64,000 bases of DNA from assembly GCF_014697615.1 (NCBI RefSeq), contig NZ_JACJSD010000013.1, forward strand, positions 1 through 64,000, in the 5' to 3' direction. The position numbers and the translations under genes were made by a program. How positions within the stretch are numbered: the stretch's first letter is position 1; each line of letters opens with the position of its first letter. The DNA comes from Nostoc sp. FACHB-280. Lineage in GTDB: Bacteria; Cyanobacteriota; Cyanobacteriia; Cyanobacteriales; Nostocaceae. Below the pieces are notes generated by a model. That model searched no databases, was not told the origin of the DNA, and saw only the letters and a program-made list of their open reading frames with translations. Shown piece after piece: positions 10,546-23,600 of the stretch.

Positions 10546-10974
10546 ATGAATGCGGGATTTGTGCATAAGATTCCGATGCTGCCCCTTGTACTATTGTGGT
10601 TAGCTTATGCCTTACTGGGATGGTATTTGGCAGTACATCACATTGTTTGGTTAGTGGGAGCTTTTATTGCGGCTGTAGCTATAGCTGTTGTCCGTAGAAG
10701 TAATACTTGGCTGGAAGAGTTAACGGCTTTTGGTTCTAAAATGTTAATTGTGATTTTAACTTTAGGTGCATCAGTAGCTTTAGTGGCAACTTGGTCAGTA
10801 TTGTTTAGTTTGTTTTTAATACCGATCGCAACTACATTGTTAGCAGATTTAGAAATGCGTTTTGCCGGCTTCGACAAAAAAGAGTCATTTCGGGTGTTAA
10901 CATTCCTGGCGGGAACAGGTTTATTTATTGGTGAAGCCGTAGATTTACTCTTCTTCCCTAGTAGTAGATTTTAA
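10546..10974 (+). CDS. Small integral membrane protein, unknown
   Basis: A 142-aa hydrophobic protein with about four transmembrane helices (LPLVLLWLAYALLGWYLA, WLVGAFIAAVAIAVV, MLIVILTLGASVALVATWSVLFSLFL, VLTFLAGTGLFIGEAVDLLFF). A short charged segment (LADLEMRFAGFDKKESFR) lies between the third and fourth. It resembles small conserved cyanobacterial membrane proteins of no known function. It is convergent with the 3' end of the split kptA gene, and the two stop codons overlap (10971-10974), which suggests this is the original chromosomal order at this edge of the inserted element. Confidence 0.7.
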   Translation: MNAGFVHKIPMLPLVLLWLAYALLGWYLAVHHIVWLVGAFIAAVAIAVVRRSNTWLEELTAFGSKMLIVILTLGASVALVATWSVLFSLFLIPIATTLLADLEMRFAGFDKKESFRVLTFLAGTGLFIGEAVDLLFFPSSRF

Positions 10975-11089
10975 AGCTGGCGGAGATATTCTGGCGGCAC
11001 AGCATCTACTAACCACACACCATTGTCAGAACAGTAGAAGATGTAACCCGCCTGATACATAGTCGCTGCATCCACCGCAAAAACTACGG
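10971..11089 (-). pseudogene. kptA: kptA 3' fragment (KptA C-terminus, split by mobile element)
   Basis: Encodes the last 36 residues of an RNA 2'-phosphotransferase (KptA/Tpt1). The segment starting FAVDAATMYQAG and containing FYCSDNGVWL and VPPEYLRQL is the typical KptA C-terminal end. The N-terminal 145 residues are at 23166-23600, 12 kb away on the same strand. At this junction the codons read GCC GTA GTT, and at the other CCC GTA GTA. The shared core CCGTAGT lies in the same phase, so joining the two ends gives an uninterrupted 181-aa KptA. Here the fragment is read in frame as the tail of an unrelated element gene. It is a disrupted gene that excision could restore. Confidence 0.9.
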
Positions 11090-11636
11090 CTTCACCAAAG
11101 TATGCACCTTTGCCTTGTGGAACTTTCAAATCTTCAGCAAGTATATGAGTAGGTGATTCAACTAGAGTTAACCCCACAGACATTTTCTGCATTTGAGTTA
11201 ATACCATCGGGTCAATATCTTTACCATCGATATCCTTACCCGTAACGAATAAATCACAATACAAATCATCTTGCAGATTGATGAAACCTGAGTAAACCGC
11301 ACCTTCAACCAGTCCAGTGAATAGATGACAAATCCATTTCTCAAGCCTTGATTGCTTAACTTCAACCTTGTTTTTATCCTTGTCCTCTTTCTGATAGTCC
11401 CTTTTAGCTACCTTAAATTTGATGTGATAGGGTTCAAATTTCCACTTTTTATCATTGAAGTCTTGAATTTCGGTAAACTTCGTAGCGTAAGCGTAAACGT
11501 GATAAAAGTCATCATCTTGACAGAATGCTAACTCTGCAAACTCCAATTTTGAGTAAGCATCCGACCAATCAGAACAACCCACAGACGCGTACTTTGTACC
11601 CTCTTTGGGAGCCATAAACCAAAATTGTCTAGGCAT
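10971..11636 (-). CDS. Element protein of unknown function fused in frame to the KptA tail
   Basis: A chimeric frame of 221 aa from the ATG at 11636 (MPRQFWFMAP); an alternative TTG lies at 11666. Residues up to about KGAYFGEA belong to the mobile element and are not recognised; they are rich in charged and aromatic residues (KWKFEPYHIKFKVAKRDYQKED). The last 36 residues are host KptA. In a circularised element the same gene would instead end VVVCNAYIPNIVRLSMNI (about 201 aa), with the integrase gene right behind it. It is the last gene of a tightly overlapping minus-strand operon starting at 12798. The fusion is a by-product of integration, so any protein made now carries a foreign tail. Confidence 0.7.
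   Translation of the reverse strand: MPRQFWFMAPKEGTKYASVGCSDWSDAYSKLEFAELAFCQDDDFYHVYAYATKFTEIQDFNDKKWKFEPYHIKFKVAKRDYQKEDKDKNKVEVKQSRLEKWICHLFTGLVEGAVYSGFINLQDDLYCDLFVTGKDIDGKDIDPMVLTQMQKMSVGLTLVESPTHILAEDLKVPQGKGAYFGEAVVFAVDAATMYQAGYIFYCSDNGVWLVDAVPPEYLRQL
11083..11097. repeat. kptA: Left attachment site of the kptA element
   Basis: ACTACGGCTTCACCA matches the right site ACTACGGGTTTACCA (23167-23181) at 13 of 15 positions. The first seven bases (ACTACGG) are identical and lie in the same kptA codon phase. The crossover must fall in those seven bases to give the family-typical GKPVV sequence in the rejoined protein. Confidence 0.8.
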
Positions 11637-12072
11637 TGATTTTTTCTTCCTTACTGAAGTGTTCAATTAATTGCAGACATCCCTTATAGAGAATCTCCGC
11701 GTGACATTTCTCTAAACCGTCTGGAACGGGTAAATAATTTTCAACGTTGATACACCAACACCCCAAGCTGTGAACGTAACCAGAATTGATATCAGTCGCT
11801 AATTGAATCACTCGCGCTAAATACTGTTGTTCCCAGAGTTCTAAACCTGTATACCTGCAACCTGTTGTCCAATTCCGTATCAATTTATTATTCAGCCATT
11901 CACGATATCTATACAATGCTTCCCCTGGTGTATCAACTAAATATCTAGCTTGAGTGTTTACTTTATGGCTCCAAGGATTACCGAGATTAAGAGCGTATTT
12001 CGTTCTTCCCACATACTCAAGCCCTCCGAGACTCCACAATATAGGAGTCATTTTTAAGATGTGTATGCTCAT
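11629..12072 (-). CDS. DUF4326-like protein
   Basis: A 147-aa protein that fits the DUF4326 pattern often found in phages and plasmids: an N-terminal YVGRT...NLGNPW segment, YRYREWLNNKL in the middle, then SLGCWC and, after a short linker, CHAEILYKGCLQLIE. The Cys, His and Gly residues are the conserved part of that family, whose function is unknown. Its first four bases overlap the nuclease gene upstream (ATGA), and its 3' end overlaps the start of the next gene by 8 bp. It is therefore in one translationally coupled operon with them. Confidence 0.7.
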   Translation of the reverse strand: MSIHILKMTPILWSLGGLEYVGRTKYALNLGNPWSHKVNTQARYLVDTPGEALYRYREWLNNKLIRNWTTGCRYTGLELWEQQYLARVIQLATDINSGYVHSLGCWCINVENYLPVPDGLEKCHAEILYKGCLQLIEHFSKEEKINA

Positions 12073-12545
12073 AAATCCTTTAAGGCGATTGCATTGATGC
12101 TAGTTCCTGGTAGTTTCCAGGCTTCCTCGCTGACTATCTGTAAGTAATTAAAGTAGTCAGGATGTATTAATTGCAGCAGTCTTAACAGTTTACGGAAATC
12201 TCCTAGAGCGAAGTTATCGTGTAGAATCCATCGCCCTTTACCCTCGAATAACAGCAATCCTTGAGGTGTGAACACAGTAAAATCAACCTTCCAAGTCAAT
12301 TCAGGAAAGTAATCATTTTCAGGTAGCACTAAAATCTCATGCTGTCTTCTAACAAAAGATGGATTGTATTTTCTGCATAGCTTCCCGTAGATTTGAAATT
12401 CGAGAACGCTGTCAAAATACTCTAAGTCTTTTTTCTGTGTCGCTGTTAATGCTGTTCCTGCTGGGATGCTTTGACCAGTTTTTGAGTTAAACCAAAACGG
12501 TTTAGCATTAATTTTGCTGTTTTTTCTTTTCGTTCCAACAGGCAT
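12069..12545 (-). CDS. DUF1064-like PD-(D/E)xK endonuclease
   Basis: A 158-aa protein resembling DUF1064, a group of phage and plasmid nucleases thought to act on recombination or replication intermediates. The likely active-site residues are Glu in DSVLEFQIYGKL, Asp in WKVDFTVF and the E-x-K in LFEGKGRW, which together make a PD-(D/E)xK core. The following RKLLRLLQLIHPDYFNYLQIV helix and strand complete the fold. It overlaps the gene upstream by 38 bp and the DUF4326 gene downstream by 4 bp. Nuclease activity and substrate are inferred from the motif only. Confidence 0.7.
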   Translation of the reverse strand: MPVGTKRKNSKINAKPFWFNSKTGQSIPAGTALTATQKKDLEYFDSVLEFQIYGKLCRKYNPSFVRRQHEILVLPENDYFPELTWKVDFTVFTPQGLLLFEGKGRWILHDNFALGDFRKLLRLLQLIHPDYFNYLQIVSEEAWKLPGTSINAIALKDL

Positions 12546-12798
12546 AAGCTTTGCTCACAATTCCTTGCCATTCATTGTAATTACGTGGTTGTAACTGTTC
12601 TAAAACCCTCGCTATTTTCTCAACCGCGTAACTTTCATCAAAAACAATCTCAACGGGAAATTTTTCTTTTTTACTCTCTCCCTTCAGGGGTGTAGTTGTC
12701 TTTAATTTGTACCCTTCCTTCGTCAGCATCAAGGGATGAAGCGCATATTTAAAGGGATTACCAAAAATTTTAGTCCAGTGTATTTGGTTCTCTGTCAT
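12508..12798 (-). CDS. Small element protein, unknown
   Basis: First gene (96 aa, MTENQIHWTK) of the coupled minus-strand operon 12798 to 10971. It is basic and aromatic in the N-terminal half and helical in the second half (AVEKIARVLEQLQ). No family was recognised. An AAAGG Shine-Dalgarno-like run lies just before the ATG, and a cluster of TTGGAGT/ACTCCAA repeats lies 18-52 bp upstream in the promoter position, so transcription of this operon is probably controlled there. Confidence 0.55.
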   Translation of the reverse strand: MTENQIHWTKIFGNPFKYALHPLMLTKEGYKLKTTTPLKGESKKEKFPVEIVFDESYAVEKIARVLEQLQPRNYNEWQGIVSKAYACWNEKKKQQN

Positions 12799-12815
12799 CT
12801 TTCATCCTTTTTTAC

Positions 12816-12850
12816 TTGGAGTAATACTCCAACTAATACTCCAAGTAATT
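12816..12850. promoter_or_regulatory. TTGGAGT/ACTCCAA repeat cluster, putative operator
   Basis: TTGGAGT-AAT-ACTCCAA (12816-12832) forms an interrupted palindrome, followed by a further ACTCCAAGTAAT unit at 12838-12849. The same heptamer occurs as three exact tandem 12-bp units at 20881-20916 and in reverse at 20972-20990 inside the same element. Its place just ahead of the 12798 gene suggests a repressor or replication-protein binding site. Confidence 0.6.
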
Positions 12851-12874
12851 TCAACTTAATAGAAATTATTTAAC

Positions 12875-13141
12875 TTATTCAGCGTCAAGCATAGCTTGAG
12901 CAGATTCGTCTGTAGCTTTCGATAAGAGGTCGAGAACCTTGTCAACAGCATTATTTTGCAATTCCCAGCAAGCTTTTTTAATTAAATCAAGTATTGCTGG
13001 AAATTTATTTAAACTTTTAGCAGCTTTGTCTAGTTCTTCTAGTTGTTCAACTTCATTAGCCAAAGTTGACAATTCTAACGCTGCATGACGAATAAGGGAA
13101 ACTACCCTATCTCTCGCTGTATTTTTTACGTTTTTTACCAC
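12875..13141 (-). CDS. Small helical element protein, unknown
   Basis: An 88-aa, mostly alpha-helical protein with heptad-like Leu spacing (LSTLANEVEQLEELDKAAKSL). It starts with GTG at 13141, supported by a GGAG Shine-Dalgarno sequence about 10 bases upstream (GGAGTAAAAATTGTG). No DNA-binding motif is clear, so it is not assigned as the element repressor. It lies alone between the operon starting at 12798 and the long gap to 13425. Confidence 0.5.
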   Translation of the reverse strand: MVKNVKNTARDRVVSLIRHAALELSTLANEVEQLEELDKAAKSLNKFPAILDLIKKACWELQNNAVDKVLDLLSKATDESAQAMLDAE

Positions 13142-13374
13142 AATTTTTACTCCGTGTAGTGGATGGAGATAAACTAACTTACTCTAAAAAAAAACGGCAA
13201 GATATAACCGGACTTTTGTAATATTCATTCATATTATTTTTTCTTCGTAGAAAAACAATTATTTTGCGTTAAAATCTAAATTTTTTATTTTTTTGGAATA
13301 GGGGAAAGCTTATACACAGAAAGTATGAATAATATTCTGGTACACTATATAACACTTTTAAATACAAATAACGA

Positions 13375-13404
13375 CAGAGGAAGCTAAAAAGCTTCCTCTG
13401 TTTT
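13375..13404 (+). terminator. Strong hairpin with T-tract, no gene upstream on this strand
   Basis: CAGAGGAAGCT (13375-13385) and AGCTTCCTCTG (13390-13400) form a perfect 11-bp stem with an AAAA loop, followed by TTTTG. On the plus strand no protein gene precedes it back to 10974. It may end a small RNA from the 13150-13370 gap or an antisense transcript, or serve the minus-strand gene at 13425 as a weak terminator. Confidence 0.65.
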
Positions 13405-13424
13405 GTTTATGTAATATGTGTTAC

Positions 13425-13648
13425 CTAAATTAACCCTTCCAGCTTCACACTCCACCTTGCAAAAGACGCTAACGAGTATTTATCTTTTTTCGGATGAGAA
13501 AAAATCACTCCTGCATCTCTGAGAACTAAGCCCTCATCTTTAAATTTCTGAGGTATGGGTATTTCTCTGATTATCGATTCACCATCATTCACCCTGATGT
13601 ATGTAACGCTGGAGTAATCACCAGTGGGGTAACGAAATCTGATTAACC
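13425..13648 (-). pseudogene. Second half of a frame-split element gene
   Basis: An open segment of about 72 codons reading WLIRFRYPTGDYSSVTY...KFKDEGLVLRDAGVIFSHPKK...SLASFARWSVKLEGLI and stopping at 13425. It looks like real coding sequence (no rare runs, balanced composition) but has no ATG near its beginning. It continues the 55-codon gene at 13643-13810 if the frame is moved back one base near AGC GGT GGT TAA. It is either a frameshift mutation, a sequencing indel or programmed slippage. A GTG inside it is the only plausible independent start. Confidence 0.5.
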
Positions 13649-13810
13649 ACCGCTTCTAAATTTCTTCTCCCAGTCTTCAGCGTTCAGGATATTGGTAGTG
13701 ATTCTGAAAATTTCACTAGTGGTAGGAACTGAAAACAATCGCCAGAGGTTATCAGGTGTGATGGTTCCCAACTGTGACCAAACTCCCAAATCATCTACGA
13801 CGGTAGCCAT
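13643..13810 (-). CDS. Short element gene, probably the first half of a frame-split gene
   Basis: A 55-codon frame starting MATVVDDLGVWSQLG and ending KKFRSGG, with its ATG inside the 3' end of the preceding gene (16-bp overlap with 13795-14025). The overlap and the aligned strand suggest a genuine translated gene. The reading frame that continues past its stop one base back is open for 70 more codons, so the real product may be about 127 aa. No family was recognised. Confidence 0.5.
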   Translation of the reverse strand: MATVVDDLGVWSQLGTITPDNLWRLFSVPTTSEIFRITTNILNAEDWEKKFRSGG

Positions 13811-14025
13811 AGAGATATACCCTCTACGTAATCATCCATGTCTACACCCGCATCATCGACACCATCAAGGTATTCTTCAGCTTCAATCTCAGCATTCAGA
13901 AATAATTCAATGAGTCCTTCTACAGTGCTTACCTGTCTGATGATTTCCCGGCATTCTTCAATACAAGGAGAAAGACCCCTTGTATTTATGCTTACAGCTA
14001 ATACGTTATAGGGGTCAAGAATCAT
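13795..14025 (-). CDS. Small acidic element protein, unknown
   Basis: A 76-aa strongly acidic protein (IELFLNAEIEAEEYLDGVDDAGVDMDDYVEG), starting 2 bp after the upstream gene at 14028 ends. Close packing with both neighbours implies one minus-strand operon from 14618 to about 13425. No family was recognised; acidic helpers of this size occur in phage tail and head assembly operons, but that is only a comparison. Confidence 0.5.
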   Translation of the reverse strand: MILDPYNVLAVSINTRGLSPCIEECREIIRQVSTVEGLIELFLNAEIEAEEYLDGVDDAGVDMDDYVEGISLWLPS

Positions 14026-14027
14026 GA

Positions 14028-14618
14028 TTACTTCAGCACCTCTGGATTAAAAGTTACACTGGCATCACCATTTTTAGCGAGAGCTTTACTTAACAAATCT
14101 GCTCTCACTTCAGCATAAGCAATGGTGTTAGTTGCGTTACTACCAAATGGGAAAGTGTAACTAGCACCTTCACGTTTCTTGTAACTACCGCCCAGCACCT
14201 TACTAGTAGTAGCTGTTTCAGTTCCAGTCGGATTAAATACAGTGATGGTTGCAGCTTTGAAACCCCTACGAGTAATTGAATCTGTTCCGTCGGCAGTTAT
14301 ATGATTTAAGTCACTTGCTGCACCGATATGTGTACTGATTACGCCTTGTGCGCGATTACTATATTTAACCAGTGTCGCAACTGGGTTAGTAGCAGGTACA
14401 TCAATACTGAATGGGTGAATCTTAGCCCCAACTTTTTTACCTGGTTTAGAACTAGCTGAACGTGTATAAGTTAACTTTTTCTTACCTGTTGCAAGTTCCC
14501 AGTATTCATGCAATTTAGTACCATTGGGAGGTTCTGGTAAATCTGTGGTAGTAGCGCCAGTGGTTTGCAGTAACAATAAAGCTCTCTGCAAAGATTTTCT
14601 ACCTCTATATAATCCCAT
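14028..14618 (-). CDS. Element protein, possibly structural, unknown
   Basis: A 196-aa protein with a basic N-terminus (MGLYRGRKSLQRALLL), many Thr/Ser/Gly residues and alternating hydrophobic strands (FKAATITVFNPTGTETATTS, ASYTFPFGSNATNTIAYAEV). The composition is that of a beta-rich structural protein, such as a minor coat or tail protein, but no family was recognised. It is the first gene of the minus-strand run 14618 to 13425, and 99 bp separate it from the next gene upstream. Confidence 0.5.
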   Translation of the reverse strand: MGLYRGRKSLQRALLLLQTTGATTTDLPEPPNGTKLHEYWELATGKKKLTYTRSASSKPGKKVGAKIHPFSIDVPATNPVATLVKYSNRAQGVISTHIGAASDLNHITADGTDSITRRGFKAATITVFNPTGTETATTSKVLGGSYKKREGASYTFPFGSNATNTIAYAEVRADLLSKALAKNGDASVTFNPEVLK

Positions 14619-14717
14619 GTCTTTTACCTTTGTGTTTTAGACTGTTTCACCAACGATAAACCCTAAATTTGATGTTTTATTTCTGCGAAAACCTTATGGT
14701 TTTTCCTAGAATTTCCC

Positions 14718-15524
14718 TCAATAAGTTTTTTGTAAAGCTTCAGGGAATCGCCCAGTGGTATCACATAGGATTCTCGGTTTAGGTAGTCCCTCGATTTTCA
14801 ATTCAGCGTGTGAAAAATACACATCAGCTATCGGGCGTTTTACTTGCTTCTTGTACGTTTTTCCTAATATCGTTTGAGTCCCTGTAACGTTCCAATTCTT
14901 CCTGCTTTCCGTATCAGTTAGCAATTCCTCATCATAGGTGTGGTTATTTAGTCCAAGTACAGCCTTAATCACTTTCTCCGCGTTATTTTCATCAAAACAA
15001 GCGAGTATAAATTCATAACCTTTAGTTTTATCTCGGTAGCTAAACTTAGTCCTACCTTTTTTGAAATGAAGTTTAGGTGTAGCAAAATCATTTTTGATTT
15101 TCAAAGCTAAAGCATTCACCTCTGACTGACTGAGATTTTCATCAACGATTCTATAGCTCACCATTGCTTGTACTGGTCGTCTATTCGCTGTATTAGCTTC
15201 TGACTGTTTTTCAATAAAGTGCAATGACACTTGAGGTTTAAGGTAATTACTCTCATGGAAAGTAGTTACAGGTATCCCATAAATGGGTTGAGCTTGAAAG
15301 GATTCACAGGCGAAGAAAAACGCTAACATTCTCGCTACGGTAAGCGTTATCGGGTCATTATCTTTATGAATACATACTCTTTTTGCAACGTGTCTTGAGT
15401 TCGTGAGGTCTAAAGAATCATCAGCTATATTGTCTAAATCTTTGAAATGTTCTTTTACTTCTTTATTCATGAATCTCAAGCAGAACTGTTGCAATAATTC
15501 AACGTCATTCGGTGGGTTAGTCAT
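14718..15524 (-). CDS. Element protein, unknown
   Basis: A 268-aa soluble protein from the ATG at 15524 (MTNPPNDVELL); a TTG three codons upstream is less likely. It is mixed alpha/beta with a Cys/His-containing middle (NSRHVAKRVCIHKDNDPITLTV) and a Lys-rich segment (TPKLHFKKGRTKFSYRDKTKGYEF). No domain was recognised. It is divergent from the plus-strand operon that starts at 15587; the 62 bp between them must contain both promoters. Confidence 0.5.
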   Translation of the reverse strand: MTNPPNDVELLQQFCLRFMNKEVKEHFKDLDNIADDSLDLTNSRHVAKRVCIHKDNDPITLTVARMLAFFFACESFQAQPIYGIPVTTFHESNYLKPQVSLHFIEKQSEANTANRRPVQAMVSYRIVDENLSQSEVNALALKIKNDFATPKLHFKKGRTKFSYRDKTKGYEFILACFDENNAEKVIKAVLGLNNHTYDEELLTDTESRKNWNVTGTQTILGKTYKKQVKRPIADVYFSHAELKIEGLPKPRILCDTTGRFPEALQKTY

Positions 15525-15586
15525 GACTTGCAAGTATAAAATAATACGTTATACTTACTTTAACCATTAATTTGATTTTTTGACTT

Positions 15587-15919
15587 ATGGCTGAACCAAC
15601 TTTAACTAATGTTTTTGGTACAGGCGCAACACAGGACGCAAGTACGCTAACAATTAGCAAATCTGCTTTAGCTACCGTAGGATTAACAGCATCAGGAAGT
15701 AATAGCGCAGAGTCTTTATTTGTTGCAATAATTTTACTTGCTCAGAGTTACTTAAATGACACAAATCAAGCAAATAATATAAATCAAAGCGTTTCAATTT
15801 CTACTGCCAGTACACCTAGTTTTGTTTCAAGAGACAACACAACGTATATCAGAGATTCAATAGCGATAGAAATAGACAAGTTAGCACCTACTCTTACTAT
15901 TGACCCAGACGATTACTAA
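15587..15919 (+). CDS. Element protein, paralogue of 16716-17168
   Basis: A 110-aa protein with the pattern FGTGATQDAS-LTISKSAL-VGLT-NSAESLFVAIILLA in the first half and an acidic end ...LTIDPDDY. The same order (FGNNATQNEE, YIKKSDLVGLT, NTAESLLIALI, VINPDNYGL) recurs in the gene at 16716-17168, so the two arose by duplication. It is the first gene of the plus-strand operon of the element. Function is unknown, but small paired proteins before long coiled-coil proteins are typical of virion or injection-apparatus operons. Confidence 0.55.
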   Translation: MAEPTLTNVFGTGATQDASTLTISKSALATVGLTASGSNSAESLFVAIILLAQSYLNDTNQANNINQSVSISTASTPSFVSRDNTTYIRDSIAIEIDKLAPTLTIDPDDY

Positions 15920-15939
15920 ACTACACAGGTTTTTCTACT

Positions 15940-16716
15940 ATGGTGATTGCAGCTAGAACGACAACAAATCTAGCTGCTACTATTACTCAAACGAATTTAG
16001 TAGCAGCCATCAAAACAGCAATGATTAATGCTGGGTTTAGTACTCTTTATGATGACTACACCAGCACAAACAGAATATTAGTTTATGAAGTTGTCAATGA
16101 CACTTCTAAAACCTACGGCAAGAATTATTTTGTAATTTCAATTAGTTCTGCTCTTGTAGTTGCAACACAGATTTTTAGCACCTGGAATGCAACAACTCAC
16201 ACAGGTACAGGTGGGAGTGCTGTTACTACTTTTAGTGCTTTTGCAACTGGTTCTAGTATTAGTTTTACTGCTTTTAGTGCAGGTGATGAACTCAAATTAG
16301 TCATAGCAGTACAAGGTAGTGTAGTTGTAATGATAGGTTCCCTTATTCCTGCTATTAGACCTAGTTGGTGGGACTTAAATCTATGGAATTGGGGTTTTTA
16401 TCCGACTGCTACAACTTTGAGTACATGGAAAAGCACCTCAATTAATCCTTATTCAAATGAAAACTATCAATTCTTAATTTTGACAAGTACTTTCCTAGCT
16501 ACTGCAAATCCACAAACTAACAAAAGAGATGTAATTACAGGTTTACTTTTAGCGAGTAGCTCTAACACTGGTATAGCTGGTAAAACGTCTGATGATATAG
16601 CGTGTGTCTGTGCTTCCGGTTCGTCTCGTTATGACACTATTCAACCAAACGGAACAACACAAATATTTACGATTTTAAATAATGCTTCCGGTGGTTTCGC
16701 TGTAAGGACAACGTAA
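15940..16716 (+). CDS. Element protein, beta-rich, possibly structural
   Basis: A 258-aa protein, very rich in Thr, Ser and Ala with short hydrophobic strands (LVLAV-type segments such as ELKLVIAVQGSVVVMIGSLIPAI) and a Trp cluster (RPSWWDLNLWNWGFYPT). The look is that of a phage tail or adhesion protein, but no family was recognised. Its stop overlaps the next start by one base (TAATG), so expression is coupled to the paralogue at 16716. Confidence 0.5.
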   Translation: MVIAARTTTNLAATITQTNLVAAIKTAMINAGFSTLYDDYTSTNRILVYEVVNDTSKTYGKNYFVISISSALVVATQIFSTWNATTHTGTGGSAVTTFSAFATGSSISFTAFSAGDELKLVIAVQGSVVVMIGSLIPAIRPSWWDLNLWNWGFYPTATTLSTWKSTSINPYSNENYQFLILTSTFLATANPQTNKRDVITGLLLASSSNTGIAGKTSDDIACVCASGSSRYDTIQPNGTTQIFTILNNASGGFAVRTT

Positions 16717-17168
16717 TGTATTTAGGAGGTAATTTTTATCAGGGAGATACTTTACTAAATTCTCAATTTTATTTATCTCCCTCAATATTTGATATCGTTA
16801 CAGCTTTTACAAATGCTGTTTTATGGAGTTCAGAAAGTTTAATTAGTCGCTCTAGTTCTCTAGCACTCTATTTTGGAAACAATGCAACACAAAACGAAGA
16901 ATATTTATATATCAAAAAAAGTGATTTAGTTGGCTTAACTCCATCAATTAATAATACAGCCGAAAGTTTGTTAATAGCTTTGATTAGTAGATTAATTGGT
17001 ATTAATGACGAATATACAGACGTTATTCTAATTAGTATTTTTGATACTTACATCAATCAAAACAAAATAACGCACACAATTTTAATTCAACTATTTTACC
17101 CAGCTACACCAGCACAGATAGAACTCGATGAACCTTTAGTAATTAACCCTGATAATTATGGCTTGTGA
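16716..17168 (+). CDS. Element protein, paralogue of 15587-15919
   Basis: A 150-aa protein whose last 100 residues repeat the pattern of the 110-aa protein two genes upstream (ATQNEEYLYIKKSDLVGLT, NTAESLLIALI, INPDNYGL at the end). The extra N-terminal 50 residues begin MYLGGNFYQGDTLLN. It overlaps both neighbours (1 bp upstream, 11 bp downstream). Function is unknown. Confidence 0.55.
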   Translation: MYLGGNFYQGDTLLNSQFYLSPSIFDIVTAFTNAVLWSSESLISRSSSLALYFGNNATQNEEYLYIKKSDLVGLTPSINNTAESLLIALISRLIGINDEYTDVILISIFDTYINQNKITHTILIQLFYPATPAQIELDEPLVINPDNYGL

Positions 17169-17739
17169 TGACAGTAGTAAAGCAACAGCGATTATTAAAC
17201 ATAAAGGAAAAGAAACAAAAATTGAAAGTAAATATCCTGGGATGACTTACACAAATGAATCTTCTTTAGATGCACAAGGAGAAGATATAGTTTGTGAATA
17301 TAAACTCACAAATTATTTACCTGATGGAAGCTCAGGAATAGAAATTTTCCGTATCAATCCAAATAAAAATATTTATGTGAAAACACCGCAGGATGGAGGT
17401 GTGACGGGTAGTGGCAACTATCCAGCTTTTGTTTTATATGCAGATGACGCTGTTATTAGTGCTAAATATTATCCTGACCAAGTAGTAAACATGACAGTTG
17501 CTTTTAATGGTAGCTGTTTAGGGAACGGATACTTGGTTGAGGTATTTGATAAAACCGGGAGAATTTTTAAAAAGTTTTTTCCAGGCGAACAACCAGAGGT
17601 GACTATTGTTTGTGATGACGAATGTCCACCCGGACACATTAAATGTAAACACAATGGCTACCCTGGATACTGTTGTGTATCTTGCAAAAGTACAGCAGAG
17701 AAAATTAATAATTTAGCAAACAAAGTAAAGGGAAAATAA
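17158..17739 (+). CDS. Element protein with cysteine-rich C-terminus
   Basis: A 193-aa protein with a beta-rich N-terminal two thirds and a cysteine cluster near the C-terminus (CDDECPPGHIKC...GYPGYCCVSC), followed by a short helical tail (STAEKINNLANKVKGK). The eight clustered Cys may bind a metal or form disulfides. It starts inside the previous gene. No family was recognised, although CPPG...CC segments occur in other proteins of cyanobacterial phage-like clusters. Confidence 0.55.
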   Translation: MACDDSSKATAIIKHKGKETKIESKYPGMTYTNESSLDAQGEDIVCEYKLTNYLPDGSSGIEIFRINPNKNIYVKTPQDGGVTGSGNYPAFVLYADDAVISAKYYPDQVVNMTVAFNGSCLGNGYLVEVFDKTGRIFKKFFPGEQPEVTIVCDDECPPGHIKCKHNGYPGYCCVSCKSTAEKINNLANKVKGK

Positions 17740-17803
17740 ACCGAGTGAAACTAAATAACTGTATCGACTGTTAATCAAATAAGTAAAGTATTAAAAATAA
17801 AAA

Positions 17804-18166
17804 ATGGCTGAACAATGCAAAGATATTGATGCAGCACTAGCCCGACTAAATGAAGCAATAAATAAATTAAATTCTAGGTTTGGTGTTTTAGAAAACAAAA
17901 TCTCAGGTTTGCAATCAAGCGTAAATGATTTAAATTCAAAGATTGGTGAGTTAAAGAATACCGATTCTGACATTAAAAGTAGAATCAATCGATTGGCTAA
18001 TGATGTAAATGATTTAAAAAAATTAAAACAGGGACAGCCGGATGATAAAACATTAAATAATTTAAGTAAAAGGGTAGGCAAACTAGAGACGTATTGCAGT
18101 AGTGTAGAGCAATATTTGTTAGGAATTACTAAATTAGTTACAGCCGTAAGGAATTTTTTAAGATGA
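17804..18166 (+). CDS. Coiled-coil element protein
   Basis: A 120-aa protein that is almost wholly coiled coil: regular heptads with Leu/Ile/Val (ARLNEAINKLNSRFGVLENK, ISGLQSSVNDLNSKIGELKN, SRINRLANDVNDLKKLKQ). Two Cys lie at positions 5 and about 99. The stop overlaps the start of the 760-aa coiled-coil protein (ATGA), so the pair is translated together and may assemble together. Fibre, stalk or tape-measure-chaperone roles are possible; none can be shown. Confidence 0.6.
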   Translation: MAEQCKDIDAALARLNEAINKLNSRFGVLENKISGLQSSVNDLNSKIGELKNTDSDIKSRINRLANDVNDLKKLKQGQPDDKTLNNLSKRVGKLETYCSSVEQYLLGITKLVTAVRNFLR

Positions 18167-20445
18167 CATTTCCAGCAACAACGCAAGCCTTAAAGCAATT
18201 AAAAGAAGCGACAGACCTAGCATCAGAATTTAAAAAATATGCTGATGGATTAAAAGATATTACTCAAAGTAGGGCATTAAAAAGCCAAATTTCAGCTATT
18301 AAAAACGGACTAACAAAAACATCAAAAACCGCGTCTGTAGCAAATGACCTTGCAAAAAAAGCAAATACAGCCGCTACTAATGCAAAAAAAATTACTGATT
18401 TATTGCAACAAGGTGCATTTAAAAAAATCAATCCTAGTTTGGGTAGTAGATTTAGCAATTTTCTTGCAGTACTAAATGCTGGTGCAACAACTTGGCTTAT
18501 TAAATCAAATGAAGGTATTCAAGAAATAAATCTTGAAACACAACGCAGAACTGAGGCAGATTTACAGGATAGTTTTACACGTACTATTAACAATTCAATT
18601 CAAATAAAAACATTGCAAAAACAAGGAGAAGAATTTAAAAAATTCCAGAATGATATTACTTATGAAGTGAGAGAGGGTAGAAAAAAAGTAGAAGAGAAAG
18701 TAGACGCGGCTAAGAAACAAGCTAACGATGCTCTCTACGAAACCAGGGAAGGGAGAAAAAAATTAGAAACTCAGATTAATGAACAAAATAGTAATTTCAA
18801 ATCTTTAAAATCTGAGTTTGACAAGGCATTGAAAAATATCGGTTCTGGTTTTCAGGAGAAAATTACAAAAACTGTTAGTGAGATTCAATCAAACCTTAAA
18901 AACACTGACAATCAAATTAAATCAGCTAATGAAAAAATTTCGGTGCAAGCAAAGATAATTTCTGATTTACAAACTGGATTCAAAACAGTTCAGGGACTAC
19001 CTAAAACTATAGATACTAAAATCGCTGAACTTAAAGAGTTTACCATCAAATTAGTGAATGGTAAACTACAGCCTGTAGAAGTGGAACAGAAAAAAATTAC
19101 CCAACAAATAAATACAATTCAACAAAACGGTATTTCACGCAAAGACATAGAAGCCACTAACGCCAGTCTACGCAAGACTTATGAGCAATCGTTTGAATTT
19201 AAAGCTCAACAGTGGCAGCAAGAAATTCAAAAACAGAATAATGAATTTTGGAATAAAAAGACAAAGGTAACTTTATCTAGCAATACTAAAATTACGCAGT
19301 CAAACACTGAGAAAATCACACAGCTAGAAAAGGACAATACCAGAATTAAAACTGATTTGGATAAAATCGGCAAGCAAATTAAGGAACAAGAGAAAGTGAA
19401 TCAAGAAGCTATACCAAAATTAAATTCTATACTTAATTTAATTCCCTTAATTCCTGCAAGAGTAGCTGACAATTTAAAACCATCTATCCCAACAATTCCT
19501 CAAATAGAGACTGCAACTGGTAAAGCAATGTGCAACAGTCTTAAAACAGGTTGTGGTAAAAAAGCCATTGATGATGCTGTTAACAATGTAAATGGCAACA
19601 CCAATCAAAATACAGGCAATATATTAGATGCGATTAACACAGGTGCTAATACTGCTCAATTAGAAATGTTGAATACCATTAACAATAAATTAGGTGTTCA
19701 ACTTCCTGATGGTTTATCTGGTACGTTCGGTAGATTATGGCAGTTATTACAAATTGATAGAGTCATCAACATTTTGACTCTGATAACTACTATGCACAAT
19801 GCAGCAATGTTAAGCAGAAGTGTAGGCGAAACTTTATTTAGTGGAATTGATAACATTGCTCAACTTGCAGGTTTTAAGTGGAAGAATGAGAAGGGTGAAG
19901 AAGTCGGTTTTGGTGGTTTAGTTTCAGAATGGACTGAAAACTTTTTCAAAACTATTTTTGGTGAAGACAATTACAACAACGCTAAAAAATCATGGAATGC
20001 AGCTAACAGAATGTATCAAGCTACGACTAATATGTTTTACCAAGTGCAAGGGATGTTTGATAGTGCTAGGAGTATCGCAGAATTAACAGCTAATAACACG
20101 GGTAAAATTGGGAATGCACTTAAAAAAGGTGGTGCAATATTTGAGAATGCTTTTCCGAATATGTCTGAAAACACTACTTCTAAAACTGCTTATCAGAAGA
20201 AGTGGGACAATATCATAGAAGGCTTAAACAATGCAGAGGAAACTGTTTCAGCGTTCAGTGCGATAACTGGTGAAATGGTTTCTATCGGTGAAAATTTCAA
20301 TGAATTGAAAAATCAGAGAGATGAATTTTTTAAAGCTAAAGATGATAGTGAAAAAGCAGTAACAGCACTGATTAATGGTGAGAAAGAAGCGGCTAAAGTT
20401 AATCAGAATGTAACTAAAGAACACACTCAAAAGTCTGAAGATTAA
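18163..20445 (+). CDS. Large coiled-coil protein, tape-measure-like
   Basis: The largest element protein, 760 aa. Residues about 1-430 are long coiled coil, rich in Lys/Gln/Asn. It includes a twofold repeat of the phrase YEVREGRKKVEEKVD / YETREGRKKLETQIN. A hydrophobic stretch follows (about 525-560, RVINILTLITTMHNAAMLSR), then a mixed helical C-terminal domain (GFGGLVSEWTENFFKTIFGEDNY and NTGKIGNALKKGGAIFENAF). Length, helix content and a central membrane-seeking part resemble phage tape-measure proteins, but no tail genes surround it, so this remains a comparison. It is followed 2 bp later by a membrane-anchored coiled-coil protein. Confidence 0.6.
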   Translation: MTFPATTQALKQLKEATDLASEFKKYADGLKDITQSRALKSQISAIKNGLTKTSKTASVANDLAKKANTAATNAKKITDLLQQGAFKKINPSLGSRFSNFLAVLNAGATTWLIKSNEGIQEINLETQRRTEADLQDSFTRTINNSIQIKTLQKQGEEFKKFQNDITYEVREGRKKVEEKVDAAKKQANDALYETREGRKKLETQINEQNSNFKSLKSEFDKALKNIGSGFQEKITKTVSEIQSNLKNTDNQIKSANEKISVQAKIISDLQTGFKTVQGLPKTIDTKIAELKEFTIKLVNGKLQPVEVEQKKITQQINTIQQNGISRKDIEATNASLRKTYEQSFEFKAQQWQQEIQKQNNEFWNKKTKVTLSSNTKITQSNTEKITQLEKDNTRIKTDLDKIGKQIKEQEKVNQEAIPKLNSILNLIPLIPARVADNLKPSIPTIPQIETATGKAMCNSLKTGCGKKAIDDAVNNVNGNTNQNTGNILDAINTGANTAQLEMLNTINNKLGVQLPDGLSGTFGRLWQLLQIDRVINILTLITTMHNAAMLSRSVGETLFSGIDNIAQLAGFKWKNEKGEEVGFGGLVSEWTENFFKTIFGEDNYNNAKKSWNAANRMYQATTNMFYQVQGMFDSARSIAELTANNTGKIGNALKKGGAIFENAFPNMSENTTSKTAYQKKWDNIIEGLNNAEETVSAFSAITGEMVSIGENFNELKNQRDEFFKAKDDSEKAVTALINGEKEAAKVNQNVTKEHTQKSED

Positions 20446-20447
20446 TC

Positions 20448-20864
20448 ATGAAAGACACAAAGATATTGATAGCCGCTAATTCTGCTAACCCTCAAGGGAT
20501 GACGATAACCTTAGAATCTACCAGTATTTTTCTCGGAATTATTGTTAGTATGTCAATGATTGTAGGAGTAGCTATCAAAGCAGTAAGTAAATTCAATTCT
20601 ATAGCGAATGAGATTAGAGATTTAAGAGAGGACTTGAATAAAACTGCAACGATATCTGACACAGTTAGAGAAATACACAAGGATGTTTTGTTGCTCGATA
20701 AACGTTTCGATGTTCATTTGCAGGACTATGAAAATAGAAAGGATACCGTACAGATGATTTTAGGGCAATTAAATGAGAAGATTGACCATAAAACACAACG
20801 GCTTGAGAGGGAAATTGAAGATATAGAAACCTATTTGCAGAAAGAGCAATCTTTTAAAACATAG
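20448..20864 (+). CDS. Membrane-anchored coiled-coil element protein
   Basis: A 138-aa protein with one transmembrane helix (about residues 26-46, STSIFLGIIVSMSMIVGVAI) and a long C-terminal coiled coil (EIRDLREDLNKTATISDTV, LNEKIDHKTQRLEREIEDIE). It begins 2 bp after the 760-aa protein and ends the operon that started at 15587. A holin-, spanin- or injection-type envelope role would fit but is not shown. Confidence 0.6.
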   Translation: MKDTKILIAANSANPQGMTITLESTSIFLGIIVSMSMIVGVAIKAVSKFNSIANEIRDLREDLNKTATISDTVREIHKDVLLLDKRFDVHLQDYENRKDTVQMILGQLNEKIDHKTQRLEREIEDIETYLQKEQSFKT

Positions 20865-20880
20865 GAGTATTTAAAATTAG

Positions 20881-20916
20881 TTGGAGTAATACTTGGAGTA
20901 ATACTTGGAGTAATTT
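20881..20916. repeat. Three tandem 12-bp iteron-like repeats
   Basis: TTGGAGTAATAC, TTGGAGTAATAC and TTGGAGTAATTT are directly repeated without spacers. Reversed copies (ACTCCAA at 20972-20978, AGTCCAA at 20984-20990) lie on the other side of a terminator hairpin. The same heptamer forms the repeat cluster at 12816-12850. This is either an iteron-type replication/copy-control site or a multi-site operator of the element. Confidence 0.7.
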
Positions 20917-20941
20917 TAAGGAGAAGCGAATATACAGATTT

Positions 20942-20968
20942 AACACCTAAAAAAATAGGTGTTTTTTA
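20942..20968 (+). terminator. Intrinsic terminator, end of the long element operon
   Basis: AACACCTA (20942-20949) pairs with TAGGTGTT (20956-20963) and runs into T6ATT. It lies about 80 bp after the last coiled-coil gene and between oppositely oriented TTGGAGT repeats. Confidence 0.8.
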
Positions 20969-21057
20969 TTTACTCCAACTACTAGTCCAAGTAATTTAGA
21001 GAATAGAGACATAAAAAATATATAGCTATACTGAATTAACCGTTAGAGAAATAAAAA

Positions 21058-21276
21058 ATGAGAGCTAAATTCTACGTAGACTCAATTACAACTTTCGCTC
21101 ATTCACCAGCGACAGAGGTTAGATTACAGCCTGTGATGGGAGGAAGTGAGGAAAATAGTAAGTTCTGGGCTATGACTCCATCAGGTTTACTTGAGATGAG
21201 GCTTGAGAATCCAGAAGCTCAAACATTTTTCAAGACTGGAACAGAGTACTATATTGACTTTTCTAAAGCTTCCTAA
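21058..21276 (+). CDS. Small phage-type protein, unknown
   Basis: A 72-aa protein, MRAKFYVDSITTFA, with LQPVMGGSEENSKFW, the phrase TPSGLLEMRLENPEAQTFF and the ending GTEYYIDFSKAS. This pattern matches small proteins of unknown function widespread in tailed-phage genomes. It is transcribed alone between two terminators (20942 and 21311). The gene at 21349 has the same type of ending. Confidence 0.65.
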   Translation: MRAKFYVDSITTFAHSPATEVRLQPVMGGSEENSKFWAMTPSGLLEMRLENPEAQTFFKTGTEYYIDFSKAS

Positions 21277-21310
21277 CTTGTTGTTACTTGGTGTAGACGA
21301 TGGATAACAG

Positions 21311-21339
21311 CACCCATTAAAACAGATGGGTGTTTTTTT
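21311..21339 (+). terminator. Intrinsic terminator
   Basis: CACCCAT (21311-21317) pairs with ATGGGTG (21326-21332) and is followed by seven Ts. It ends only 10 bp before the ATG of the next gene, so it may act as an attenuator for that gene as well as ending the one upstream. Confidence 0.8.
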
Positions 21340-21348
21340 GGTTTGATT

Positions 21349-21609
21349 ATGGATATTCCTTTAATTAGTCTGGATGAATTACCGAAAATACGGTTTAAAG
21401 TTGATACGCTTTCTTTTCACCAAGGATTTACTAAACAATCAGTGATTTTAGTACCTAAAGATAAAGCAATTAAGATTGACTTGTTACCACCTGATAGCTT
21501 TAATATTGATTTACAGGGAAAAATAGAATTAAATTTTAATTGGTTTGCAGCAGCAGAATACTTTGATTTAGGTAGAGAGTTTTATATTGAATTTCATCGA
21601 ATACAATAG
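21349..21609 (+). CDS. Small element protein, relative of 21058-21276
   Basis: An 86-aa protein from the ATG at 21349 (MDIPLISLDELP). The C-terminal AAEYFDLGREFYIEFHRIQ corresponds to AQTFFKTGTEYYIDFSKAS of the preceding gene, and KVDTLSF / YVDSITTF align near the N-termini, so both belong to one small-protein family. The 10-bp space between the upstream terminator and the ATG leaves no room for a promoter, so expression depends on read-through or on a promoter inside the hairpin region. Confidence 0.55.
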   Translation: MDIPLISLDELPKIRFKVDTLSFHQGFTKQSVILVPKDKAIKIDLLPPDSFNIDLQGKIELNFNWFAAAEYFDLGREFYIEFHRIQ

Positions 21610-21640
21610 ATATAGACATTTGCAATGTTGTAGAAAAAAT

Positions 21641-21675
21641 AACCACTTAGATTAAATTTCTAAGTGGTTTTTATT
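21641..21675. terminator. Bidirectional terminator between convergent genes
   Basis: AACCACTTAG (21641-21650) and CTAAGTGGTT (21660-21669) form a 10-bp perfect stem. T-rich sequence follows on the plus strand and on the minus strand (AAAAAATAACC read in reverse). It separates the 21349 gene from the convergent integrase. Confidence 0.8.
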
Positions 21676-21691
21676 TTTGATTTAGTTGTGC

Positions 21692-23098
21692 TTACTTGTC
21701 TTTCTCAGCTAACAGCTTATTAATCAATTCCTGTTGCTGTCGTAACTGTTCCTTGAGTAAATCTAACTCTGATTGTTGTTTCACTTCTGGATTAACTCTC
21801 TCAGCGAATATCGCTACATCTTGATAGTGTTTATTGCTTACGTCGATGGTATGACCACACCATTTACTAACTATCTTCTCATCAATTCCTAAATCGAAAA
21901 TTGCATGAGTAATAAACGTGTGTCGTGTGTTGTATGGAGATAGGTATTTAGTGAGTTTACCTTGTTCTATTAATGGCGGTATTATTCCTTTGCATTTCTT
22001 TTTATCATGCCCTCTCCATGCGAGACTGAAAACATCTCTGTCTATTATTTTTCCTGTTTTACTTTCAAAAACTACATCATGAGGTTCTTTTTTTGGAATC
22101 GATTTTAATAAGTTCCACAATTCACCGTCTTTCGGCATTGGAAACTTACGTTTTTCCTCTCCTTTATAAGACCTGTCATTTTTAAGTGGATAAAACTTTT
22201 TAGTTGCTCCATCGTGCGTCCATGCGATTATTATTCTTTCTTTATCCCATTCAACGTTAAACCATCTAAGTGCTATCGCTTCACCCGTTCTACATCCTGT
22301 GAGAAATTTGAATTTGAGGAAACTAAACCAATGAGAAAGCGCGGGTCTATTTTCCACATAATCAAGTATTATCTGCGCTTCTTCCCATGTATAGGCTTTT
22401 GATTGGTCAAGTACATCATCATCTGTTTCTATTTCCTCTTGCGTTTTACCTTGTGCGCCTAATCTTTGTATCTCTTCTGCCATACCTTCATACGGGTTGT
22501 GAGATAGTAATTTATTTTTCATTCCCAATCGATACGCTTTTGAGAGATTGACTAATAATTTTTTGACAGTTTCACAGCTTCTATTTTCAATTAGCCAATT
22601 TCTGATTTTTAAAGCATCTTCTGAGTTAGTGGCTTTAATCGCTGCTTCAAGAAAATTTTTGTATACCATTTGGTACGTATTTTTATACGTACTCTCTCTC
22701 AATCCTGGTTTTCTGTACTCACAATACATATCCCAGACTTCCATCAGTGATAATTCAGGTTTGGGCGGTATCTGATTATCAGATGGTAAACCGCCTTTTA
22801 CAACCCTCAGTTTTGCTCTTAACCCGTATTCTTCGAGAATCTCCTGATAACGTCCAAGGTTGAATATCCCCTCAGCCGTTGATAGCTTTCCCTCCTCAAG
22901 TTCTAGCTGTAGCCGTCGTTGTAACTTAGTCGCTGTAGCTTCCCAGTCGTCAGGATTAATCCCAGTACCTAGCTTGACTTGTTTACCATCTGCAAAGTAA
23001 GTACGGGGAAAGCAAGCCTTGATACTTCCGCTATCTGGTCTTACCGTTACCTGACCTTTCTTGGTCTTACCAGTCGGTGTTTTACTGCTATTTACCAT
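21692..23098 (-). CDS. Tyrosine recombinase (integrase) of the kptA element
   Basis: Site-specific tyrosine recombinase, 468 aa from the ATG at 23098 (MVNSSKTPTGK); a TTG lies three codons upstream. It has an N-terminal arm-binding region (about 1-110), a core-binding SAM-like domain (about 130-220) and a catalytic domain. Catalytic residues are Arg in LTGCRTGEAIAL, Arg-His in SPYNTRHTFITH (the usual HxxR His is Tyr), His in KWCGHT and the nucleophile Tyr in NKHYQDV. A C-terminal coiled coil (LLKEQLRQQQELINKLLAEK) follows. It lies 16 bp behind the truncated kptA frame on the same strand, so it is probably read from the kptA promoter while the element is integrated. It should catalyse excision and insertion at the ACTACGG core. 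Confidence 0.93.
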   Translation of the reverse strand: MVNSSKTPTGKTKKGQVTVRPDSGSIKACFPRTYFADGKQVKLGTGINPDDWEATATKLQRRLQLELEEGKLSTAEGIFNLGRYQEILEEYGLRAKLRVVKGGLPSDNQIPPKPELSLMEVWDMYCEYRKPGLRESTYKNTYQMVYKNFLEAAIKATNSEDALKIRNWLIENRSCETVKKLLVNLSKAYRLGMKNKLLSHNPYEGMAEEIQRLGAQGKTQEEIETDDDVLDQSKAYTWEEAQIILDYVENRPALSHWFSFLKFKFLTGCRTGEAIALRWFNVEWDKERIIIAWTHDGATKKFYPLKNDRSYKGEEKRKFPMPKDGELWNLLKSIPKKEPHDVVFESKTGKIIDRDVFSLAWRGHDKKKCKGIIPPLIEQGKLTKYLSPYNTRHTFITHAIFDLGIDEKIVSKWCGHTIDVSNKHYQDVAIFAERVNPEVKQQSELDLLKEQLRQQQELINKLLAEKDK

Positions 23099-23099
23099 A

Positions 23100-23132
23100 A
23101 TGCTCAATAGATGCTCAAATGTTCATGCTCAA
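23100..23132. repeat. Three ATGCTCAA repeats next to the integrase start
   Basis: ATGCTCAA occurs at 23100-23107, 23111-23118 and 23125-23132, with 11- and 14-bp steps, inside the element and 35 bp from the attachment core. They overlap the integrase start region. They may be arm-type integrase binding sites or an operator controlling integrase. Confidence 0.55.
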
Positions 23133-23600
23133 TCTTACAATATTTGGTATATAAGCATTGCATACTACTACGGGTTTACCATGTCTTGCACCGACAGTTG
23201 TGGCTGTAGTTATATCCTGTGATAAGTGGACATGGTGGCGAGACATTTTATTGAGTCCAGTTTGCAAAATAGACTCAACAGCTTTGTGTCCAGTACCGTG
23301 ATACAGCACATCAGGCGGGACAGCAGGTAGTAATTGTAAATCAACTTCTACGCTGTGTCCTTGGTTGGCGCGAATTAAAGTACCAGTAGAGTCAAAACTA
23401 AAGCGTTGTTTATCGTTAGTGGCGACTACTGCTGTTAATTCCTGGCGAGTAATAGGAAACTTATGTTTAGCACAAGCGGCTAAAAGTTCCTCCACTGCAA
23501 CCCAACCACCAGGCGCAAGTTTAATACCTAAAGATTCTGGCTGGTGGCGGAGATATTTGCTTAAGAATTTACTAATTTTGACTAGGCGGGGAGTATTCAT
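23115..23600 (-). pseudogene. kptA: kptA 5' fragment: RNA 2'-phosphotransferase, interrupted
   Basis: The first 145 residues are KptA/Tpt1, the NAD-dependent enzyme that removes a 2'-phosphate from RNA. Conserved catalytic residues are present: Arg18-His19 in KYLRHQPES, Arg in KQRFSF and Arg in GARHGKP. The winged-helix part (residues 1-75) and the H-G-T of YHGTGHKAV are typical. After GKPVV the frame runs into the mobile element, adds 16 foreign residues (VCNAYIPN...) and stops at 23115. The missing C-terminus (FAVDAATMYQAG...) is at 10971-11081. Joined at the shared CCGTAGT core, the two parts give 181 aa, the normal length. Whether the truncated form has activity is unknown. Confidence 0.93.
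23167..23181. repeat. kptA: Right attachment site of the kptA element
   Basis: ACTACGGGTTTACCA, the partner of the left site at 11083-11097. The first seven bases are identical; the rest is kptA coding sequence (the GKP codons in reverse). Confidence 0.8.

Follow-up and report, generated by a model that had tools for sequence, protein, structure and literature searches.

The closest described systems are the nifD/XisA and hupL/XisC elements of heterocystous cyanobacteria (PMC4874684), in which a gene is split between short direct repeats, a recombinase gene lies near one end of the element, and relatives carry the gene intact. That survey reports many interruption elements in these organisms, with a serine-recombinase element in every ortholog group and a tyrosine-recombinase element in only six, and places those in genes lacking a role in nitrogen fixation in the serine type. 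A further parallel is found in temperate elements, for example the Sa3int phage in hlb, which interrupt host genes and may later re-form them; they too combine an integrase with a core inside a coding gene. The locus analyzed here lies in a 64,000-nucleotide stretch (the window) of the draft genome of Nostoc sp. FACHB-280, which comprises 113 contigs. It has the features listed above for nifD and hupL, but its recombinase does not appear to be XisA-like, its target, the RNA 2′-phosphotransferase (KptA/Tpt1) gene kptA, is not a nitrogen-fixation gene, and its far end looks incomplete; unlike the Sa3int-type phage, it has no recognizable phage packaging or capsid genes among the 10 of its ~18 ORFs compared with PHROGs. 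As the preliminary description supposed, the kptA element seems to be undescribed: kptA does not appear in Table 1 of PMC4874684, and no such element was found in the open-access literature on kptA excision, Nostoc interruption elements, and bacterial KptA, as far as its accessible text goes.

The kptA gene is split between short direct repeats, and recombination of these would restore it exactly. The Pfam profile PTS_2-RNA (PF01885) aligned with the N-terminal part from profile position 2 to 151 (E 8.9e-47); the C-terminal part, on the same strand, matched positions 141-176 (E 1.6e-4), its 22.2 bits falling just short of the curated cut-off of 26. A whole-genome search with PF01885 returned these two pieces only, with no third piece and no second kptA copy. 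When the flanks were joined at CCGTAGT, the two copies of which are 12,084 bp apart, we obtained the 181-aa KptA that had been predicted from this shared motif; the joined protein aligned over its full length with nine KptA proteins of the same genus, and its PF01885 domain was complete. The preliminary description had kptA split in frame by an integrase-bearing element between short repeats, with which both the Pfam halves and the empty site in relatives agree, and its junction coordinates were correct to within one codon. It did not mention that the element's last gene and the C-terminal part of kptA are joined in frame, making one 231-aa ORF (10971-11666). At the opposite junction, the kptA 5′ frame stays open for 16 codons into the element (ORF 23115-23600, 161 aa). 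The CCGTAGT 7-mer by itself is at chance level, and one 8-mer and two other 7-mers are also common to both junction regions; we accept the boundary as real because of the empty site in relatives, not because of the 7-bp repeat.

Table 1. Features of the kptA locus, in window positions, and the other elements of the integrase family for which both ends were located.
Feature	Position	Strand	Size	Remarks
kptA 3′ part, including far-side core	10971..11089	-		continues the frame of the element's last gene
Last gene of the element	10971..11666	-	231 aa	fused in frame to kptA C-terminus
Core CCGTAGT, far side	11083-11089	-		12 of 14 bases match kptA target, counting upstream neighbors
Inserted element, in kptA	11090..23173	.	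12,084 bp	includes one core copy; repeat 7 bp; empty site in L005 and L007
Five small ORFs	11629..14025	-	76, 88, 96, 158, 147 aa	
ORF, family not recognized	14028..14618	-	196 aa	
Marker ORF of the element type	14718..15533	-	271 aa	matches in 58/199 genomes
Five ORFs	15587..18166	+	110, 258, 150, 193, 120 aa	homologues in related elements
Coiled-coil ORF	18163..20445	+	760 aa	C-terminal half conserved; collagen-like repeats in homologues
ORF adjoining integrase	20448..20864	+	138 aa	homologues in several related elements
Tyrosine recombinase	21692..23107	-	471 aa	from TTG; ATG alternative at 23098
TGAGCAT-N4-TGAGCAT pair	23100..23117	-		sole such pair in window; putative integrase arm sites
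Core CCGTAGT, integrase side	23167-23173	-		
kptA 5′ part, including integrase-side core	23167..23600	-		Pfam match
G042 element in aminotransferase V gene			7,853 bp	repeat 11 bp
Nostoc sp. S4 element in gpmB-like gene			7,497 bp	repeat 21 bp
G054 element in marR gene			14,272 bp	repeat 6 bp
N. linckia FACHB-104 element in SDR gene				repeat 22 bp; halves on two contigs
S4 element at ftrV 3′ end	L067 9940-13965		~4 kb	repeat 19 bp
G042 element between genes			6,332 bp	repeat 12 bp
Nostoc MAG element between genes			~2.6 kb	repeat 10 bp

Uninterrupted copies of kptA, which the preliminary description had proposed seeking in related genomes and whose absence from every relative would have spoken against a split gene, exist at the matching position in two same-genus genomes, G005 (L007) and G006 (L005). 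Identity between the window flanks and these genomes was 93.5-96.4% on the N side, the C-side values being 92.7% and 89.5%, and in both loci the two flank alignments covered a single intact kptA, overlapping only around the core. Among ten other same-genus genomes, nine gave an uninterrupted match and one gave none. The window allele has ten private changes, of which 8 are synonymous and 2, in one codon, are nonsynonymous; the three alleles compared all disagree at one additional codon. Its omega was ~0.1, like that of intact pairs (the join used for this estimate is one silent base off the true empty site). Such an undecayed gene implies either that the insertion is recent or that KptA is still made by excision in some cells. 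In our reading, the insertion is young relative to the split from G005 and G006.

Across the family, kptA was matched in 135 of 217 genomes and not in the remaining 82, on account of which we regard the loss of kptA as tolerated and the gene as dispensable. The best match was split, partial, or stop-bearing in 12 of the 135 genomes, the window included. We recognized no second kptA bearing such an element among the 217 genomes (G052, G242, and G274 left out), and the idea that kptA is a recurrent attachment site was rejected. In G227, the two kptA pieces (L123/L124) are 24.6 kb apart with a break ~3 codons upstream of that in the window, and no homologue of the window integrase or cargo lies between them; the copies in G034, G016, G024, G118, G163, and G286, together with an extra piece in G231, resemble decaying remnants. 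ORFs near the G227 3′ piece resemble TnpB by reading, and N runs lie nearby. The kptA 3′ piece of G061 (L086 1628-1747) starts exactly at the PVV codons that form the target in the window and adjoins an ORF that, by reading, resembles an RNA ligase, with no integrase match.

The recombinase gave domain matches to Pfam Phage_integrase (E 1.4e-12) and to the phrog_1 integrase family (E 1.1e-38). Its frame is intact and starts ~60 bp from the integrase-side core, i.e., close to one element end. Presumed XisA ORFs (477 aa) were assigned by their place beside the nifD 3′ piece in G009, G001, and the present genome. Among 14 ORFs that included these, the best alignment with the window integrase had 28.75% identity over 80 aa (E 6e-4), with a range of 27-29% over 71-80 C-terminal residues; phmmer found no match in the same set, and a whole-genome search with the window integrase retrieved none of the three. 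Judged by its sequence, the window recombinase is not XisA-like. The nifD gene of this genome is also split; its pieces lie on contigs 77 and 70, and the presumed XisA ORF adjoins the 3′ one.

Within the order-level set, 61 of 100 genomes gave some match to the integrase, mostly distant. The element family as defined here has 17 members, namely the window element, the best nine relatives (42-81% identity) from the 99 other genomes of that set, and seven more from named Nostoc and Anabaena assemblies (eight loci, one of which was the contig already found in G010). The sequence from integrase to junction is common to all but a few members and ends in a motif close to ATAATGCTTATA. Both ends were located in 8 of the 17 members, and counts for the far end cover these eight. 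Six of the bounded members lie in six different genes and two between genes, with repeats of 6-22 bp that all differ. Host genes were named by Pfam; the short N part of marR gave no match, and its C part was matched. After joining, the reading frames of the aminotransferase, gpmB-like, and marR genes are all open across the junction, indicating that members of this family ordinarily split genes in frame. Recombination at any core leaves such a split between repeats; by itself, the split is no evidence of a programmed switch, for which the informative test is the state of both element ends. This tyrosine-integrase family splits coding genes outside the nitrogen-fixation genes, and along with kptA no fewer than five other host genes join the sites where Nostocales integrase elements split or border coding genes; the kptA element is a real feature, of an ordinary kind. 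By reading, the S4 element at ftrV appears to replace the last codons of the gene with a substitute gene end, and the element in the gpmB-like gene may give the cut gene a new start, a TTG just upstream of the repeat (L064 17350-17450).

TGAGCAT pairs, scanned with ≤1 mismatch allowed, immediately precede the integrase gene in 14 of 16 elements (the exceptions are G028 and G054; G031 was outside the scan). Their position and repetition, and the likeness to lambda-type integrases, suggest that they are integrase arm sites. At the far end, two pairs each, spaced 77 or 87 bp apart, occur in the G042 aminotransferase, S4 gpmB-like, S4 ftrV, and FACHB-104 elements, and the Nostoc MAG element has one, so that 5 of the 8 bounded members have far pairs; in G054, TGAGTATT variants occur at distances of 152 and 65 bp from the end. 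Such pairs are rare, any being found in 6 of 100 random 64-kb sequences with matched dinucleotide make-up, and none in 104,324 bases of the relatives' kptA loci. The kptA element shares with its family the homologous integrase and the adjacent pair, and both its cores are present. Its far-end pairs are missing, the integrase-side pair being alone in the whole window. Far pairs would presumably be needed for excision; they may not be, given that bounded member G042 e1 has none, unless that element is truncated too.

The last gene of the kptA element is cut at ...GKGAYFGE and runs into kptA, whereas four homologues examined (FACHB-104, G158, G025, and G054) reach a stop of their own ~60 residues further on. 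Downstream of this gene, FACHB-104 and G054 each have an ORF with a Walker-type motif, which had no Pfam match and is ATPase-like by motif alone. A close comparison is the N. linckia FACHB-104 element (L066, L071, and L131), whose integrase is ~69% identical and whose gene set from integrase to last gene is largely syntenic. It differs from the kptA element in its SDR host gene, its 22-bp repeat, its far pairs, and its extension past the last gene. The 12/14 junction match to the kptA target was found anywhere in 7 of 200 shuffles of the element. From these comparisons, the kptA element looks like a deletion derivative with an absent far end and a shortened last gene, and it is probably poor at excising, which argues that kptA is broken rather than regulated.

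Our preferred explanation, to which we give a probability of roughly 0.7, is a gene-disrupting integrative element, probably truncated, that splits and most likely inactivates kptA. A tyrosine-integrase element of a many-target family, whose insertions often fall within protein-coding sequence, would have entered kptA by recombination at its conserved GKPVV codons, splitting this dispensable gene and most likely inactivating it. A full-length element may have inserted first, with its far end lost later by recombination or deletion at the 12/14 similarity. The lost segment would comprise the end of the last gene, the ATPase gene that follows it in relatives, and the far arm sites, up to the core; to judge from the relatives, this deletion joined what remained of the last gene to the C-terminal end of kptA. 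The main evidence against this reading is the undecayed kptA, which is expected if KptA is still made or if the insertion is very recent; the intact integrase frame also counts against it.

We regard as unlikely that the element is complete and excisable, its far end lying within the last gene and its repeats being variant, with KptA lost only while the element is integrated. The presence of both cores, the intact integrase, and the example of G042 e1 agree with such an element, as does a circle that, by reading, would keep the last gene open; however, the syntenic FACHB-104 element goes on past the last gene into the ATPase-like ORF and has two far pairs, and the homologues of the last gene have their own C-termini. 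Developmentally or stress-regulated excision, restoring kptA in some cell type as at nifD and hupL, is not supported and seems to us improbable. The resemblance in design that the preliminary description drew to these elements holds for the in-frame split, the short repeats, and the integrase at one junction; the undecayed halves, with their mostly synonymous private changes, and the abundance of interruption elements in heterocystous cyanobacteria (PMC4874684) also fit. The resemblance does not extend to mechanism: the integrase is at best weakly related to XisA, its relatives sit in unrelated genes or between genes, which counts against programming of the nifD/hupL type, the far arm pairs are missing, and kptA is often absent or decayed in the family, with no second copy recognized as bearing such an element in the genomes read. 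An assembly artefact, in which unrelated kptA pieces were misjoined, is conceivable in a draft genome of this kind but scarcely credible given the empty-site synteny on both flanks, the synteny of the element body with the FACHB-104 and G158 elements, and a 7-bp core too short for contig misjoining.

Most of the five small ORFs (11629-14025) are syntenic with the FACHB-104 and G158 elements, and ORF 11629-12072 matches DUF4326. PHROGs searches with 10 of the ~18 element ORFs identified the integrase and one family of unknown function, the only other two matches having E >0.06; no tailed-prophage genes (terminase, portal, or capsid) were detected among these 10. No convincing identity for the cargo emerged from PHROGs, Pfam, NCBIfam, PADLOC, solved structures, IMG/VR, or INPHARED. 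PADLOC and NCBIfam gave weak matches at most, and among solved structures the marker had no match, the 760-aa alignment had one low-complexity match, and the 196-aa alignment had a best E of 0.28. Viral contigs of IMG/VR yielded no useful match to the integrase or the 271-aa marker and one weak match to the 158-aa ORF, phage records (INPHARED) yielded nothing useful, and a search for near DNA matches of the element among plasmids was unproductive. PHROGs tail-fiber families were matched by ≤5 members of the 14-member 760-aa alignment, via collagen-like repeats, and not by the window protein.

Among the 58 of 199 genomes with the 271-aa marker, it often adjoins a 760-aa homologue (L105-L120), and this cargo pair marks a widespread, unclassified element type of the Nostocales. 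Two plasmids recorded as circular for Nostocales HT-58-2, L121 (CP019638.1) and L122 (CP019637.1), also carry the pair; the 15,633-bp one encodes ParAB as well and has a 1664-aa ORF that gave a MACPF match. Judging by its cargo, the element is of a common type that is missing from the virus libraries searched. We tentatively suggest, as a possibility that we hold at well under even odds, that the element is a member of a widespread lineage, not yet described, of virus-like Nostocales integrative elements, with a conserved module around the 271-aa and 760-aa proteins, varied replication ATPases or helicases, a HerA-like ATPase in one relative, an occasional plasmid form, and integrases that use many protein-coding genes as attachment sites, and that the copy in kptA is a deletion derivative that has become stranded. 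A related element in G044 (L112, 9350-17972) carries a DnaB-like helicase, an integrase, and one ATPase with weak HerA-like and terminase-like matches; the marker also had matches at three further places in G044.
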